Source of the DNA: Magnetospira sp. QH-2
Lineage (GTDB): Bacteria; Pseudomonadota; Alphaproteobacteria; Rhodospirillales; Magnetospiraceae
Direction: 5' to 3'
NCBI RefSeq assembly: GCF_000968135.1
Contig: NZ_FO538765.1
Span: 124,001-188,000, forward strand
DNA: 64,000 nucleotides
A program made the position numbers and the translations under genes. The notes below the pieces were generated by a model that ran no database searches, was not told the origin of the DNA, and saw nothing but the letters and a program-made list of their open reading frames with translations. This document shows, one piece after another, positions 31,410 to 36,962 of this stretch. Within the stretch, counting starts at the first letter, position 1, and every line of letters starts with the position of its first letter.

Positions 31410-31579
31410 GATTACTCCCTCGGGCGTGCGGCGGTCCGCGCTATGGCAGATGAACAAGGATGGAGCCCGAGCCAGCTGTTCATCGGCTCGACAAGCGCTC
31501 TTGTCAAAAGCGGAAGGGCCAAATCGACGGTTCGGTGTATGGTCTCCTTTTCTCCGGCGGTTCAATTGGCTATAGTGGA

Positions 31580-32080
31580 ATGAAAGCCATGCCTTCGAAC
31601 CAGAATCTCACACCCCATCCAAGTGTTGTCCTGCCGGGAATCCGAAACGGCTTGCGCGCCGTGATCCGGCGTGATGACAAGATCCTGATGCTGCGCAAGA
31701 GCAGCTCGGCCTACGGTGAACGTTACGTGCTGCCGGGCGGCACGCAAGATCCCGGTGAGACCATCGATCGGGCTCTGAACCGGGAATGCCGCGAGGAAAT
31801 CGGAACGGGCGTGGAAATCATCGCGCTTCTTCATGTCGCGGACTTTTTCAAGCCCCGCGACACGGATCCGCCAACCTATCGGCATCAGATCGAGTTTCTG
31901 TTGTCCTGCCGCGTTCCCGAAAGCTATCAGGCCACAACAGGATCGAAACCCGACCGCCATCAGGTCGGTGTGGTCTGGCTCCCCTTGGATAACCTGGCAG
32001 CGCAACCGGTGTTTCCTTGTCAGCTTGTCGAAATCCTTCGTTCCCCGCCCAGCGCGGTCTATCTCGGAAGGATCGACTGA
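31580..32080 (+). CDS. Nudix hydrolase
   Basis: A 166-residue protein with a complete Nudix box G-x5-E-x7-R-E-x-x-E-E-x-G (G-T-Q-D-P-G-E ... R-E-C-R-E-E-I-G), so likely an active nucleoside-diphosphate-X pyrophosphohydrolase. The stop is one base before the next ATG, so it is the first gene of the GAK-type cassette that follows. The start at 31580 is preceded by AGTGGA; a second ATG three codons later is possible. Confidence 0.85.
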   Translation: MKAMPSNQNLTPHPSVVLPGIRNGLRAVIRRDDKILMLRKSSSAYGERYVLPGGTQDPGETIDRALNRECREEIGTGVEIIALLHVADFFKPRDTDPPTYRHQIEFLLSCRVPESYQATTGSKPDRHQVGVVWLPLDNLAAQPVFPCQLVEILRSPPSAVYLGRID

Positions 32081-32081
32081 C

Positions 32082-33704
32082 ATGCAGGCCCCCATACCCA
32101 TCGACGAGAATTTGCGTTTCTTGATCATCGAGGTCCGCTCTCATGCGACCGAACTGAAGAGCTTCTTTGAGTCCGGGGCACAGACCCCGACGACACAAAT
32201 GATGGACCGTAACCATTACATATACTCGATCAAGGCAAGAATTCACGGCATGTGCCTGGAGGTGTTTCAGTCCCGCAAGAAGAATATCCTGGACGGGCGC
32301 TCTTTCTGGGCGCTGGGAGCCGTGGCAACGGCGTTGGCGCGTATATCGGACCTATGCTGCGACTGTGTTCGACACGCCCGTCGGGCGCGCAAATCAGGTC
32401 ACTGTCGCTGCTCGGACCTCGCGGCCATGATGCGTGAAGTGCTACATGGCATCGCGCTCATCGAAACGGCCGAGGGTCGGTTCGACTTGGAACTCGCCAT
32501 GGAGGTCTGCGGCACCCAACCCCGCCTGGCCCGCGACCACAAGCGATTGGTCAATCGCTTGATCAAACGGAAGAAATCCAACACCGTAATCATCGACAAC
32601 CTGTATATCGCCCAGAAAATCGAGGAAATGGGTGAATCCCTGCTGACAATTGGCGAGGCGGTGATCTCGGCGAACCTGGGTCTGGATCTGGATATCGATC
32701 GTTACCAGACCCTACGCTCTTCGCTCGAAAAGATGCATAACGGCGCCCAGGCAACCATTGAAACCCTGGCCGAAACGCGCTCCGGCAGCGGGGTGTCCGG
32801 TATATCCGATCCGGACAACGACGACGACCAGATCATCGCTGTTCTCAAGGATGGCAAGAAGCGCAAGCTCAAGGCGGAACGCCAGAAAGTAGAGGTCTGG
32901 AACGGGGTATTCCCGGGGCTGGCTCCGAAAATCCTTTCCTATCGCAAGCATGGTGATCGAGCCGGGCTGCTGATTCAGCACCTGCCGGGCTTGACCTTCG
33001 AGCAGATCGTAATGACGGAATCCGCCCCGGCCCTTAAGAAAAGCTTGGCGGGGCTGAAGAGAACCCTAAAGGCCGTCTGGGCCAAGACCAAATCCGAGCA
33101 GACCGTCTCGGCCCGTTTCATGGAACAGCTGCATGGTCGGCTAAAAGACGTCTATGCGGTTCATCATGATTTCCGTTCCGGTAGCGTGGTTTACAACGGT
33201 TTGCGCGCGGAATCCTTCGAGCGGCTGATCGAGCAGGCCCGCAAAGTCGAGGAGAGCTATCCAGCCCCGTTCTCGGTCTATATCCACGGAGACTTCAACA
33301 TCGACAACATCCTGTTCGACCAGGCCGAAAAGGACATCCGGTTCATTGACCTGCACCGCTCCTGCCAAATGGATTATGTGCAGGATATATCGGTGTTCAT
33401 GGTGTCCAACTATCGTCTTCAAGGCCTCGACGAGCCGCTCCGGCTTCGCATTCGCGGCGTGGTGACGGATTTCTACCAGTTTGCCCGCACGCAAGCCAAA
33501 CGCGCCGATGACACCTTTTTCGAGGTCCGCCTGGCCCTGGGACTGGCCCGCTCATTTGCCACATCGACCCGATTCATCTTGGACCGGCAACAGGCAGCGG
33601 GCATGTTTATGCGGTCGCACTACCTGCTGGAACGGGTTGCAAATCTGACGCCGAAATCCGCCAAGCGGTTCCGCGTGCCAGTAAGGGAGCTTTTCAATGG
33701 CTGA
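32082..33704 (+). CDS. Two-domain protein: alpha-helical (PhoU-like?) N-terminus and aminoglycoside-phosphotransferase-fold kinase C-terminus (GAK-type cassette)
   Basis: 540 residues. Residues 1-240 are almost wholly helical and rich in charged residues, with a cysteine group (D-L-C-C-D-C ... H-C-R-C). A linker (about 245-260) leads to a kinase-like domain whose catalytic loop is V-Y-I-H-G-D-F-N-I-D-N-I-L-F-D and whose metal-binding Asp is in I-R-F-I-D-L-H-R. That is the APH/choline-kinase fold. It overlaps the ATP-grasp gene by 8 bases. Role within the cassette is unknown; small-molecule or protein phosphorylation is possible. Confidence 0.72.
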   Translation: MQAPIPIDENLRFLIIEVRSHATELKSFFESGAQTPTTQMMDRNHYIYSIKARIHGMCLEVFQSRKKNILDGRSFWALGAVATALARISDLCCDCVRHARRARKSGHCRCSDLAAMMREVLHGIALIETAEGRFDLELAMEVCGTQPRLARDHKRLVNRLIKRKKSNTVIIDNLYIAQKIEEMGESLLTIGEAVISANLGLDLDIDRYQTLRSSLEKMHNGAQATIETLAETRSGSGVSGISDPDNDDDQIIAVLKDGKKRKLKAERQKVEVWNGVFPGLAPKILSYRKHGDRAGLLIQHLPGLTFEQIVMTESAPALKKSLAGLKRTLKAVWAKTKSEQTVSARFMEQLHGRLKDVYAVHHDFRSGSVVYNGLRAESFERLIEQARKVEESYPAPFSVYIHGDFNIDNILFDQAEKDIRFIDLHRSCQMDYVQDISVFMVSNYRLQGLDEPLRLRIRGVVTDFYQFARTQAKRADDTFFEVRLALGLARSFATSTRFILDRQQAAGMFMRSHYLLERVANLTPKSAKRFRVPVRELFNG

Positions 33705-34587
33705 ACCCAAAATCGGTATCGTCGGCATTCCGGGCAAATGGTCCACGGAAGCCCTGGCTGATGCCGTGGAGGCACGGACCGGTTTCCGGCTGGTGATCGA
33801 CATGGCCGACGTGGTTCTCGACCTTCACGAGCGCCGCCTGATGCATGGAGATGTGGATCTCTGCGCCCTGGATGGCTTGGTGATCAAGAAAATCAGTGAA
33901 AGCTACTCCCCTCACGCTCTGGATCGGTTGGAGATGTTGCGCCTGCCGGAGGCCGCCGGTGTTCGCGTCTTCAGCCCGCCAAACGCCATCTTGCGGACCA
34001 TCGACCGGCTGGCCTGCACCGTGACCCTGTGCAATGGCGGTATCCCCATGCCGGAGACCCTGGTCACCGAAAGCGTCGACCAGGCCGTTGAGGCGGTCGG
34101 GCGGCTCGGAACGGCGGTTTTCAAGCCCCTTTACTCCACCAAGGCCCGGGGTATGGCTGTCATCAACGGATCGACACCCGATAGGGAGATCCGGGCTGCC
34201 GTGGAGGCTTTCCATGCCGACAATCCTGTGATGTATCTGCAACGGAAGCTCGATCTTCCGGGGCGGGACCTGGGGCTTGTGTTTCTGAAAGGAAATTACC
34301 TGGGAGCCTATGCCCGGGTTGCCGGCGGCGAGGCCTGGAACACCACCATCCACAGCGGTGGCCGATACGCATCGTTCGAACCACCGGGAGAATGGATCGA
34401 TCTGGCAAAACGGGCGGTGGATCTGTTCGGCCTGGACTTCACCACCGTCGATCTGGCCGAGACAGCGGACGGACCGGTGATCTTCGAGGTTTCAGCCTTC
34501 GGTGGATTTCGGGGTGCCAAGGAAGGGGCCGCGATCGATGCCGCGGCCCTTTATGTCGACCATGTTCTGGAAAGGGTCCGCCCATGA
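33697..34587 (+). CDS. ATP-grasp enzyme of the GAK-type cassette
   Basis: A 296-residue protein with RimK/glutathione-synthetase-like features: I-G-I-V-G-I-P-G-K-W at the N-terminus, A-V-F-K-P-L-Y-S-T-K-A-R-G-M (ATP-binding lysine loop), Y-L-Q-R-K-L-D-L-P-G-R-D and late metal-binding V-I-F-E-V-S-A-F-G-G-F-R. Such enzymes ligate a carboxylate to an amine or thiol through an acyl-phosphate. Database families call this type 'GAK system ATP-grasp'; the substrate is not known. Start and stop overlap both neighbours. Confidence 0.78.
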   Translation: MAEPKIGIVGIPGKWSTEALADAVEARTGFRLVIDMADVVLDLHERRLMHGDVDLCALDGLVIKKISESYSPHALDRLEMLRLPEAAGVRVFSPPNAILRTIDRLACTVTLCNGGIPMPETLVTESVDQAVEAVGRLGTAVFKPLYSTKARGMAVINGSTPDREIRAAVEAFHADNPVMYLQRKLDLPGRDLGLVFLKGNYLGAYARVAGGEAWNTTIHSGGRYASFEPPGEWIDLAKRAVDLFGLDFTTVDLAETADGPVIFEVSAFGGFRGAKEGAAIDAAALYVDHVLERVRP

Positions 34588-35681
34588 CCGATGCCGCCGT
34601 ATTGGCGTCCCACATGGCAGGGGACCTGATTCTTTGCGACACCCCCCTGGACCTGGACCTGGGAGGCGATGGTTTCACTCTGCGCGTGGTTTCCAACGAG
34701 GCGCGGTTGATTGACAGTCTGCGGCACTATTTCCGCCATCTGTCGGCACCAAGCACCGTTCCGGACCGGGTACTGAAAGTCTGGCAGAGGGAAGAGGTTC
34801 CTTGTGATATTCCCTTTGCGGACTGGAGCCGCGAACCGGGCAAAACAGGGCGCAAGGACGCCTACGCGGACCTGCCGGATGCCCGTCTGGTACGCAAAGT
34901 TCGGACCGGAATGCTGTTTCTCCAGGCGGCGGATAGGGCGGTCTGCGCCGGGCCGTGTCTGGCGAACGAAAACCAGGTGATCAACTTCATCAACTCCCAA
35001 TACATGACTTGGCTGCAACAGCGCGGCAACCTGATCTGCCATGCGGCGGGATTGGCCGCCAACGGGCAGGGGCTGGGACTGGCCGGGTTGTCCGCTGGCG
35101 GCAAGTCGACCCTGATGCTGCACCTGCTTGAACGAGACGACGTTACCTTTGTCTCCAACGACCGGCTGCTCGTGCGCCGGGAGGATGGCAAGACGATCGC
35201 CCGCGGTATTCCCAAACTGCCCCGAATCAATCCCGGCACCGTGGTCCATAACCCGCGCCTTCATCCCTTGATCGATGACGAACGGCGCCAGGAACTTCTC
35301 GCCTTGCCCAACCAGGCGCTTTGGGAGCTGGAGCAAAAACACGACGTGGATATCCTGACCCTCTATGGGGAGGACCGGATCGTTCCGCAAACGCCGCTCT
35401 CTGCCTTCGTCATCCTCAACTGGTCGCGGGACTCGACAAAGCCTTGGCGATTGCAGGAGGTCGACCTTGCAGACCGGCGGGACCTCCTGCGGGCAGTGAT
35501 GAAGTCGCCCGGGCCATTCCACCAATATGGAGACGGCCGGTTCCAGGCCGACCATATGCCCTTCGATGAATCCGCTTATCTCTCCGCCTTGGCCCATGTA
35601 TCCTGCCACGAAGTTACCGGACAGATAGATTTTGACGGCGTTTCCGCCGCTTGCGCGGCACGCTTGCTGGGAGCCACTTGA
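34584..35681 (+). CDS. HprK-related kinase (GAK-type cassette)
   Basis: 365 residues. An N-terminal region of about 140 residues precedes a kinase core with a P-loop G-L-S-A-G-G-K-S-T followed by F-V-S-N-D-R-L-L, the arrangement of HPr kinase/phosphorylase. There is no HPr or PTS gene nearby, so the target is probably not HPr. The ATG overlaps the upstream stop (ATGA) and the TGA overlaps the next ATG (TGATG). It corresponds to the family named HprK-related kinase B, as I recall it. Confidence 0.76.
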   Translation: MTDAAVLASHMAGDLILCDTPLDLDLGGDGFTLRVVSNEARLIDSLRHYFRHLSAPSTVPDRVLKVWQREEVPCDIPFADWSREPGKTGRKDAYADLPDARLVRKVRTGMLFLQAADRAVCAGPCLANENQVINFINSQYMTWLQQRGNLICHAAGLAANGQGLGLAGLSAGGKSTLMLHLLERDDVTFVSNDRLLVRREDGKTIARGIPKLPRINPGTVVHNPRLHPLIDDERRQELLALPNQALWELEQKHDVDILTLYGEDRIVPQTPLSAFVILNWSRDSTKPWRLQEVDLADRRDLLRAVMKSPGPFHQYGDGRFQADHMPFDESAYLSALAHVSCHEVTGQIDFDGVSAACAARLLGAT

Positions 35682-36631
35682 TGACACGTGAACTACTCAT
35701 TCTCCGTCACGGCAAGGCCCAACCGGGCCGAGGAGCGAAAGACCGGGATCGCGAACTCAAAGACAAGGGCAAGCGTGATATTCAGCGGATTGGCGTCTGG
35801 CTACAAGAGAATGAGCGGTTACCCGATGCAATCCTCGCCTCGCCCGCGGAACGGGCTTGGAGCACGGCTCAGAAGTCCTTGAAGGCCGGGGGCGCGGGCA
35901 CCGAGGGCCTGAGCAAGGAAGAGCGCCTCTATGACGCCTCCCTGAAGGATTTGAAGTCCTTGCTCGCCAAGGCGTCCAACGGTACAGAGCGGCTGATGCT
36001 GGTGGGGCACAATCCCGGTCTAAAGCAATTGGCGGCCTATCTGACCGGATCGGGTGAATTGCTGAGTAAGGGAATGCTGCTGCGGATCGGACTTCCCGAC
36101 GATTGGGGCAAGCTGAAGAAGGGGTGCGGGCAACTGCTCGACAGGGTGGATCCCGGAGACCTGCCGAGGCTGTTTCCGTTTCCCGGGCCGGGCTCTTCGG
36201 AGATGCGGGACCGGCCGTCCTACTACTATACTCAGTCTTCGGTCATCCCCTACCGCCTGCACGAGGGGGCCGTCGAGATTCTGGTCATCCAGTCGAGCAA
36301 GCAACATCATAGCGTCGTGCCCAAAGGCATCAAGGAGCCGGGCCTCACCCCACAGGCCTCGGCGGCCAAGGAGGCCTGGGAAGAAGCCGGCGTGGAAGGC
36401 TATGTGGAAGACGCGCCGTTAGGGGCCTATGGATATGAGAAATGGGGCGCCAACTGCACCTGTACGGTCTATGCGATGGCGGTCAGGCGGGTGGTGCCCG
36501 AGGCGGAATGGAAGGAGAGCCACCGGGGGCGGGTCTGGATGCCTCCCGAGGAGGCGGCCGCACGATTGAAGCAGAAAGAGCTCGGGCCTTTGGTCATGGC
36601 CTTGGCCGAGCGGTTGCGGCAAACGTCATGA
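35681..36631 (+). CDS. SixA phosphohistidine phosphatase fused to a Nudix domain
   Basis: 316 residues in two domains. Residues 1-155 form a histidine-phosphatase domain with catalytic R-H-G near the start (L-I-L-R-H-G-K-A) and the second His in V-G-H-N-P-G-L. Residues about 185-315 form a Nudix domain (P-K-G-I-K-E-P-G-L ... K-E-A-W-E-E-A-G-V); relative to the G-x5-E-x7-R-E consensus the first Glu is Leu and the Arg is Lys. The order is opposite to that of mycobacterial MutT1 (Nudix then phosphatase). It adds a dephosphorylating partner to the kinases upstream. Confidence 0.82.
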   Translation: MTRELLILRHGKAQPGRGAKDRDRELKDKGKRDIQRIGVWLQENERLPDAILASPAERAWSTAQKSLKAGGAGTEGLSKEERLYDASLKDLKSLLAKASNGTERLMLVGHNPGLKQLAAYLTGSGELLSKGMLLRIGLPDDWGKLKKGCGQLLDRVDPGDLPRLFPFPGPGSSEMRDRPSYYYTQSSVIPYRLHEGAVEILVIQSSKQHHSVVPKGIKEPGLTPQASAAKEAWEEAGVEGYVEDAPLGAYGYEKWGANCTCTVYAMAVRRVVPEAEWKESHRGRVWMPPEEAAARLKQKELGPLVMALAERLRQTS

Positions 36632-36693
36632 AGGCGCCGTCGTCCGCTACGGCCCACCCCGAAGGGCTCAAACCCATGCCGGAGAAATCCTGA
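36628..36693 (+). CDS. Possible 21-residue microprotein chained between two cassette genes
   Basis: A short frame starts with an ATGA overlap on the SixA-Nudix stop and ends with a TGATG overlap on the amphi-Trp start, exactly as the neighbouring real genes do. It encodes M-K-A-P-S-S-A-T-A-H-P-E-G-L-K-P-M-P-E-K-S. No family is recognised; it may only serve to carry ribosomes across. Confidence 0.3.
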   Translation: MKAPSSATAHPEGLKPMPEKS

Positions 36694-36962
36694 TGAAGAA
36701 AACGCCCAGCACCTTCAAGCACGAATCCCTCCAGGACCGGCAATCGATCAAGAGTATTTTGAATGCGATCACCAAGGGGATCGGCCAGGGAAAGGTCAGC
36801 TTGAGCGACGAAGACGACGAGGTGGTGCTATCCCCGGAGGGCCTTCTGCATTTGCGGGTTTCGGCGACTCAAGACGGCACCGACAATCGCCTGACCATCC
36901 GCCTGGATTGGCGCTCGGATAAAGAGGCCCCCAAGCGAAAAGCCCTTGCCGTAAACAAGTGA
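36693..36962 (+). CDS. Amphi-Trp domain protein
   Basis: An 89-residue protein matching the amphi-Trp domain: F-K-H-E-S-L-Q-D-R-Q-S-I, then I-T-K-G-I-G-Q-G-K-V-S-L-S-D, D-D-E-V-V-L-S-P-E-G-L-L, and a terminal L-D-W segment. The domain is characteristic of GAK-type cassettes (grasp, amphi-Trp, kinase), which is the main reason for identifying the cluster. It may be a carrier or scaffold. It is the last gene of the cassette. Confidence 0.8.
   Translation: MKKTPSTFKHESLQDRQSIKSILNAITKGIGQGKVSLSDEDDEVVLSPEGLLHLRVSATQDGTDNRLTIRLDWRSDKEAPKRKALAVNK

Follow-up and report, generated by a model that had tools for sequence, protein, structure and literature searches.

What is the substrate of a gene cassette that joins two kinases, an ATP-grasp ligase and Nudix hydrolases to a small protein of the amphi-Trp family? 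The question is raised by a locus of Magnetospira sp. QH-2, in the stretch of 64,000 nucleotides analysed here (the window; contig C1, 124001-188000, of a genome of 4.05 Mb). Six genes, all on the + strand, span positions 31580-36962 of the window and are chained by a 1-base gap or by overlaps of 1 to 8 bases, as the initial annotation had it; the last pair is joined through an open reading frame (ORF) of 21 codons. Three of the products pass the curated cut-offs of NCBIfam families of the GAK system (TIGR04354-TIGR04357; the name is presumably formed from grasp, amphi-Trp and kinase): the ATP-grasp ligase that of grasp_GAK, TIGR04356 (436.9 bits, cut-off 300), HprK-related kinase B (HprK-B) that of HprK_rel_B, TIGR04355 (341.9 bits, cut-off 200), and the amphi-Trp protein that of TIGR04354 (74 bits, cut-off 31). 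By these matches the proposed GAK identity of the locus is near certain; the cassette is a reduced one. The open-licence literature yielded nothing on the GAK system, HprK-related kinase or amphi-Trp, in keeping with the earlier description of the cassette as uncharacterised; papers outside open licence may exist. The features of the locus are the following.

31580-32080, + strand: Nudix hydrolase, an optional member of GAK cassettes that precedes the kinase (Pfam NUDIX, 1.2e-15; relatives in 39 of 60 loci)
32082-33704, + strand: fusion of a PhoU domain and an APH-fold kinase (PhoU-APH), core GAK member, after a 1-base gap (predicted from PhoU and APH structure matches; 60 of 60 loci)
33697-34587, + strand: GAK ATP-grasp ligase, core member, overlapping PhoU-APH by 8 bases (TIGR04356)
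34584-35681, + strand: HprK-B, core member with a predicted fold of the phosphoenolpyruvate carboxykinase (PEPCK)/HprK type, overlapping the ligase by 4 bases (TIGR04355)
35681-36631, + strand: SixA-like domain with a DIPP-type Nudix domain (SixA-Nudix), optional member, overlapping HprK-B by 1 base (SixA and DIPP structure matches)
36628-36693, + strand: 21-codon ORF coupled to both neighbours, overlapping SixA-Nudix by 4 bases and amphi-Trp by 1 base
36693-36962, + strand: amphi-Trp protein, core member with the GAK-type motif F8-x-H10-x-S12 (TIGR04354; predicted one helix and four strands)

The proteins also score above the Pfam cut-offs for NUDIX (both Nudix-bearing proteins), APH, RimK, His_Phos_1 and Amphi-Trp. 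HprK-B stays below that for Hpr_kinase_C (18.7, cut-off 33.3), and SixA-Nudix differs from SixA itself in staying below the NCBIfam SixA cut-off (59.1 bits, cut-off 74.5). NCBIfam and Pfam scans found no HPr or phosphotransferase system (PTS) protein among the six, again as first described.

The GAK cassette is a conserved gene unit

The core of the unit consists of PhoU-APH, the ATP-grasp ligase, HprK-B and amphi-Trp, to which two phosphatases are usually added. A scan with the ligase profile over one genome per species, in 84,980 species, gave at least 494 stretches coding for a relative; the best 80 were kept and, with 11 further loci and the window, make up the 92 loci tabulated. Presence, defined as a tblastn match anywhere within the fetched locus, was counted for the 60 loci with enough flank, 32 of the 92 being dropped for less than 4 kb upstream or less than 6.5 kb downstream. 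L058, whose ligase matched in frame only in part, is left out of the search alignment and tables, and L050 and L059 are dropped as duplicates of L074 and L131 from the ligase tree, the presence table and the Pho-box permutation test given below. The set was chosen by ligase and holds close relatives (for example many Roseibium); it is thus neither a random nor an independent sample. Residue conservation refers to alignments of chosen subsets plus the window: 39 of 68 full-length sequences for HprK-B, 45 of 68 for amphi-Trp, 44 of 88 for PhoU-APH and 36 of 55 for SixA-Nudix.

PhoU-APH and HprK-B are found in all 60 loci and amphi-Trp in 59, so that the co-occurrence expected from the initial annotation does hold. 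A metallophosphatase occurs in 57 and a histidine phosphatase in 56; this trait is a finding for the loci examined here and not a published criterion. Nudix (39), SixA-Nudix (34) and a CofD-like protein (25) are common optional members; the two Nudix genes are thus not additions peculiar to the window, as had been supposed. The usual order is a divergent CofD-like gene (optional), Nudix, PhoU-APH, ligase, HprK-B, SixA-Nudix, histidine phosphatase, metallophosphatase and amphi-Trp, with exceptions in L071, L082, L109, L117 and L124; the order of the window is also found in one other genome (G705). In the rearranged L071, L082, L117 and L124, both phosphatase genes directly follow the ligase and HprK-B lies further along, the phosphatase pair moving as a unit.

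By record title the carriers are mostly alpha- and gammaproteobacteria, many of them marine, and two are Rhodopirellula. Since the same genes recur in mostly the same order across all three groups, the cassette is not a chance assembly. In a quick ligase tree the Rhodopirellula ligase sits in a supported, mostly alphaproteobacterial group, and PhoU-APH, HprK-B, SixA-Nudix and Nudix of L113 also have alphaproteobacterial proteins as their nearest relatives outside Rhodopirellula; this pattern fits a transfer of the whole unit. A cassette also lies on a contig filed as a metagenome-assembled genome of a Halobacteria archaeon (L065); its ligase falls among those of gammaproteobacteria, and the contig is probably mis-binned. 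On plasmids, the ligase was found in five records from three Paracoccaceae species, all predicted to be non-mobilizable; the four plasmid loci inspected all carry the cassette with both phosphatases.

An unselected sample of 398 genomes across the phylum, the same for three families, gives the ligase in 14 genomes (E <= 1e-60; 13 over the cut-off), HprK-B in 15 (E <= 1e-40; 14 over the cut-off) and amphi-Trp in 21; all 14 ligase genomes encode HprK-B and 12 of them amphi-Trp. The cassette is patchy, since in the class sample HprK-B exceeds its cut-off in only 2 of 385 genomes. Pairwise identities follow those of the ligase with Spearman correlations of 0.77 for PhoU-APH, 0.71 for HprK-B, 0.61 for amphi-Trp, 0.59 for the histidine phosphatase, 0.54 for Nudix and 0.38 for SixA-Nudix, values that shared host ancestry alone could give.

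A partial precedent is the yvcI-yvcJ-yvcK-yvcL-crh operon of Bacillus subtilis, which joins a Nudix gene, the gene for CofD-like YvcK and that for a protein tied to HprK. GAK loci resemble it in joining the same three elements, and YvcK is the runner-up match for three GAK CofD-like proteins from other loci. The operon is not known to share their gene order or to have an ATP-grasp or amphi-Trp gene, and the Magnetospira genome differs in turn in having no GAK CofD-like gene: TIGR04357, an optional family, has no match there (G000), nor in G705 and G211, and was found in both controls (G424, G395).

The window copy has lost two phosphatases

What distinguishes the window copy is the absence of the two phosphatases, not the presence of the Nudix genes. 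Neither the histidine phosphatase nor the metallophosphatase is in the cassette, which is thereby unlike most GAK loci. A metallophosphatase query has no match in the whole window genome and detects the gene in all 5 control genomes, the genome that supplied the query being one of these; the histidine phosphatase query, run without a positive control, has one weak match there, located elsewhere (20.3 bits). The same short form occurs in L064, L096 (Magnetovibrio) and L138, where amphi-Trp directly follows SixA-Nudix and a remnant of the histidine phosphatase gene, its first codons, is kept between them, and L109 also lacks both phosphatases. Because SixA-Nudix is retained in all five of these loci, the window included, the pattern suggests, from few cases, that it can stand in for the lost phosphatases. 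A single inherited event was considered as the origin of the short form and set aside: the quick ligase tree needs four changes, though no more than two are required by branches with good support, and the window sits on a long branch in it.

The 21-codon ORF, noted earlier as a possible microprotein, has no NCBIfam match and no significant similarity to the N terminus of the histidine phosphatase, and was rejected as a conserved microprotein. It was also rejected as a histidine phosphatase remnant, 102 of 200 shuffles scoring as well, against 0 of 200 for L064, L096 and L138. It probably encodes no gene product of note, and is perhaps a translational link at the place where the two phosphatase genes are missing.

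The Nudix and SixA-Nudix enzymes, the PhoU-linked kinase and the ligase

Searches of the Protein Data Bank (PDB) match SixA-Nudix to SixA (2rfl, 2e-17) and, for its Nudix half, best to DIPP1 and DIPP3-alpha (6e-14 to 7e-14). The Nudix glutamates 231, 234 and 235 are kept in 37 of 37 aligned proteins, the first Nudix-box glutamate being replaced in all 37 (by Leu in the window). The SixA catalytic His10 is present in 29, the window among them, and missing in 8; the window protein also retains the RHG motif and the second His. Because its glutamates are kept throughout and the SixA histidine has been lost in 8 of 37, the Nudix half appears to provide the lasting function. In the Aestuariispira protein (L131, 11993-12955) RQG replaces RHG, and the SixA half is probably inactive. 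In a Lamellibrachia symbiont (L092) the SixA-Nudix gene lies in two pieces, between 12005 and 13882, around a 233-codon ORF on the opposite strand, perhaps an insertion.

The other Nudix protein matches the PADLOC candidate model PDC-S07 (38.7 bits), which would speak for an anti-phage defence island; the remaining five proteins have no PADLOC match at E 0.001 and HprK-B has none among phage records at E 1e-10, so that a role in defence seems highly improbable.

The helical half of the APH-type kinase, which the initial annotation had described by its helices only, is identified by profile comparison as a PhoU domain: a profile of 45 sequences matches PhoU (4q25, E 6.7e-12) over positions 7-223 and APH(3') (4feu, E 2.7e-6) over positions 287-444. 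With its kinase motif residues H402, D404, N409 and D423 kept in all 45 sequences, PhoU-APH is expected to be catalytically active as a kinase. In the annotation of the four plasmid copies it is listed as a phosphotransferase, with no mention of PhoU.

The ligase belongs to the same ATP-grasp family as RimK, LysX and MptN: its next-best NCBIfam matches are MptN (138.9 bits) and the RimK family (93.2), both under their cut-offs, and in the PDB it matches RimK (4iwx, 3.5e-19) and also LysX structures. It differs from these in having an NCBIfam family of its own, and from RimK in an invariant S-A-F-G-G-F where the RimK structure has N-A-S-P-G-L.

The predicted HprK-B model resembles PEPCK over its whole length

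The AlphaFold2 model of HprK-B (pLDDT 94.8, pTM 0.93) carries the catalytic-domain fold of HPr kinase/phosphatase (HprK/P) and, along its entire chain, the fold of ATP-dependent PEPCK. It aligns with HprK/P 2qmh at Z 14.4 over 131 residues (root-mean-square deviation 2.4 A), within residues 149-365, and with the PEPCK 1j3b at Z 16.9 over 303 residues (4.2 A); the full-length HprK/P chains 1knx and 1ko7 align only from residue 148 on. Common to the three proteins are the predicted fold and a Walker A motif with an invariant His before it and an invariant Asp after it; in HprK-B these are K174, H153 and D193, invariant in 40 sequences together with the motif K-x-P-R-x-N-P-G-T. HprK-B differs from HprK/P in following PEPCK over its whole length, and scores only 15.9 bits against the NCBIfam HPr kinase/phosphatase family hpr-ser (cut-off 240). 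In PEPCK, a Lys-Lys pair in the helix before the P-loop lies on the metal/CO2 side; HprK-B differs here from PEPCK, the pair being aligned by profile with non-lysine positions and no conserved lysine being listed in residues 126-145. In its N domain R83, K87, K91, R101, K105 and R107 are invariant across the 40 sequences that went into the model, with K87 and R107 at 90% or more in a second set of 40. From the model and these residues, we read HprK-B as a PEPCK-fold kinase that would bind something strongly anionic, and not as a carboxykinase. Because the model matches PEPCK over the whole length and HprK/P over the C-terminal part only, a small-molecule substrate would be at least as likely as a protein. 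ATP-dependent PEPCK itself (TIGR00224) has no match in the window genome and is present in 4 of 5 other GAK genomes tested.

Phosphorylation of ordinary cellular HPr is suggested by the kinship of HprK-B with HprK in name and in catalytic-domain fold, and the genome does have an HPr gene. That gene, however, has a separate HprK-like match about 1.7 kb away (28.7 bits, covering the P-loop part only), near 3.295-3.297 Mb; since these two are close neighbours, HprK-B is probably not the kinase of HPr. Its N-terminal part is moreover unmatched by full-length HprK/P structures, and it occurs with GAK genes. We regard an HPr substrate as scarcely credible. The assumption that the target is a protein is weakened by the PEPCK-like model of the whole chain.

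The amphi-Trp protein carries a GAK-type motif

At GAK loci, 67 of 69 amphi-Trp sequences (65 of 67 without two duplicates) contain the motif F-x-H-x-S, as do three plasmid copies; L047 lacks the Ser, and L046 the His and the Ser. F8, H10, G33 and W73 are invariant among the 46 aligned sequences. Among the 398 genomes, nine have amphi-Trp but no ligase match; in one of these (G544) the protein belongs to a GAK cassette and has the motif, and around the remaining eight, where 5 to 8 kb were fetched, no GAK gene turned up and the motif is present in none (sequences read by eye). A second, sub-threshold amphi-Trp match exists in G452. In the sample seen, the motif thus appears to be GAK-specific. 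The best of five AlphaFold2 models, with pLDDT ranging from 84.7 to 58.2, has one helix and four strands, and no convincing fold match was found for it (best Foldseek E 1.3, best VIA Z 3.1); profile searches of the PDB gave only weak, mixed matches, the best being to a designed protein (0.0043).

Conservation in the family is N-terminal, which bears on two roles for the protein. It might be an amino-group carrier like LysW, its C terminus being loaded by the ATP-grasp enzyme; LysX and RimK act on protein C termini, and the GAK ligase is related to both. LysW has a conserved C-terminal Glu as acceptor, whereas the C terminus of amphi-Trp varies in length and sequence and shows no conserved terminal Glu in the rows shown (one in two of the 46 aligned), which makes such a carrier very unlikely.

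It might also be the switch of the system, in line with the initial annotation, which named it as a candidate target: HprK-B would phosphorylate Ser12 (or His10 would carry the phosphate), the histidine phosphatase, the metallophosphatase or SixA would remove the phosphate, and the phosphorylated state would control the ligase or PhoU-APH. HprK/P phosphorylates a serine of a small protein, and HprK-B has the HprK-like catalytic domain in its model (Z 14.4); amphi-Trp is small, present in 59 of 60 loci, and marked by a motif that separates GAK loci (67 of 69) from others (0 of 8). Against this, L047 and L046 encode HprK-B even though their amphi-Trp proteins lack the candidate Ser (in L046 also the His), the HprK-B model has a PEPCK-like N domain, and most of the other cassette enzymes come from families that act on small molecules. 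The motif thus keeps the earlier proposal in play, while the two loci without the Ser and the occurrence of amphi-Trp away from GAK genes speak against it; a protein switch seems to us doubtful.

A weak but plausible link to phosphate or polyphosphate

CHAD-family genes lie in the fetched flanks of 9 of the 94 loci clustered, or 8 once a duplicate is removed, each with a gene for a ParA-like ATPase, in different lineages: L051, L053, L059 (the same place as L131), L065, L080, L102, L106 and L115. Pfam bears out the assignment for two CHAD proteins (of nine) and for one ParA-like protein, the others being assigned by clustering. CHAD is described as a polyphosphate-binding module and Ddp1-type Nudix hydrolases are counted among the polyphosphatases (PMC6537752).

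Upstream of the cassette, 25 of 74 deduplicated loci have Pho-box-like repeats; other spacers give 11-16, and 0 of 150 permuted motifs reach 25; an initial test that looked strong had used a crude resampling control. At a loose threshold 32 of 89 loci match, with close relatives included in the count, compared with 59 of 359 real upstream regions (p 1e-4). The motif test speaks for a signal in some lineages. Another word, CTATAGC, is enriched upstream of GAK cassettes (9 of 89 loci, against 0.8 in crude resampling), and a near form, CTATAGT, stands at 31570-31576 of the window, 3 bases before the Nudix start; it is perhaps a promoter element. The genes bordering the cassette look unrelated, a LysR-like regulator upstream and, downstream on the opposite strand, a fructokinase-like sugar kinase, both scoring under the cut-offs of their named models.

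Taken to its full extent, the link would make GAK a system of phosphate or polyphosphate homeostasis, in which the PhoU half senses phosphate, the Ddp1/DIPP-type Nudix enzymes and the phosphatases trim a polyphosphate-like compound or dinucleoside polyphosphates, and the kinases and the ligase tag a responding molecule. The PhoU half, the DIPP-like Nudix half, the eight distinct loci with CHAD and the Pho-box-like sites all point this way; but the ATP-grasp ligase is left unexplained, no CHAD gene was found near most cassettes, other upstream regions match the Pho box as well at the loose threshold (59 of 359), and at a stricter threshold the matches (8 of 89 against 18 of 359, p 0.20) are not significant. 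There is no Pho box upstream of the window cassette, and the plasmid loci have one in 2 of 4 cases. Homeostasis of this kind is in our estimate distinctly unlikely.

A proposed make-and-break system

We favour, tentatively, a module that builds and breaks a small-molecule phosphorylated conjugate, with amphi-Trp as a non-catalytic partner, over a protein switch on amphi-Trp, because most of the cassette enzyme families act on small molecules and because the HprK-B model is PEPCK-like along its whole length. The chemistry is hinted at by the nearness of the ligase to MptN and RimK/LysX, by the APH-type kinase and by the nearness of the SixA-linked Nudix half to DIPP. The ATP-grasp enzyme would join an amino acid, glutamate-like by its kinship with MptN, RimK and LysX, to a carboxylate of a small acceptor; HprK-B, with its PEPCK fold and an N domain rich in invariant basic residues, may phosphorylate the acceptor or the product, and so may the APH-fold kinase, gated by its own PhoU half. 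The Nudix enzymes, joined in most loci by the two phosphatases, would cleave pyrophosphate or phosphoester bonds, by which a signal would be ended or the compound recycled. Amphi-Trp would do no chemistry; its N-terminal F-x-H-x-S segment would bind either the enzymes or the product. In Magnetospira, SixA-Nudix would have to cover for the lost phosphatases. What was observed is gene content, conservation, predicted folds and losses; every step of this scheme is inferred from them.

Several results weigh against the conjugate module. L046 lacks both the histidine phosphatase and SixA-Nudix, with the metallophosphatase kept, which counts against SixA-Nudix as a stand-in, and the existence of a short form means that the phosphatases can be lost, a poor match to an obligatory cycle. 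Amphi-Trp occurs without GAK genes in 8 of the 21 amphi-Trp genomes among the 398. A search of the PDB with the HprK-B profile finds neither HprK nor PEPCK, only ABC transporter P-loops, and in direct profile comparison HprK-B matches PEPCK over 63 columns (E 8e-5) and one HprK-like sequence (L025) over 34 columns (E 1.8e-6), the latter with a slightly better score. That comparison is a weak one, its HprK side being a single ORF (that of L025; 1 of 28 loci kept) and the four PEPCK proteins being cut at an inner Met (which left two of them 401 and 437 residues long). The suggested link to PEPCK thus comes from a predicted model and a weak 63-column match. For the phosphate side of the scheme, the scarcity of CHAD genes, the stricter Pho-box threshold and the window without a Pho box count in the same direction.

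A bolder version of the conjugate reading is possible, if somewhat unlikely. GAK would be dedicated to making and breaking a new phosphorylated conjugate of an amino acid, which would serve as messenger or cofactor and be sensed or held by the F-x-H-x-S segment of amphi-Trp; HprK-B would represent a third functional branch of the PEPCK/HprK fold, with a PEPCK-like N domain and the carboxykinase lysines lost; and the window would hold a minimal version, with a single bifunctional SixA-Nudix eraser. What the cassette offers is a phosphotransfer system scattered through the Pseudomonadota, many of them marine, and also carried on plasmids; with its apparent core set, a natural minimal form, the amphi-Trp motif and a PEPCK-like kinase model, 'function unknown' becomes a matter of a few direct biochemical tests.

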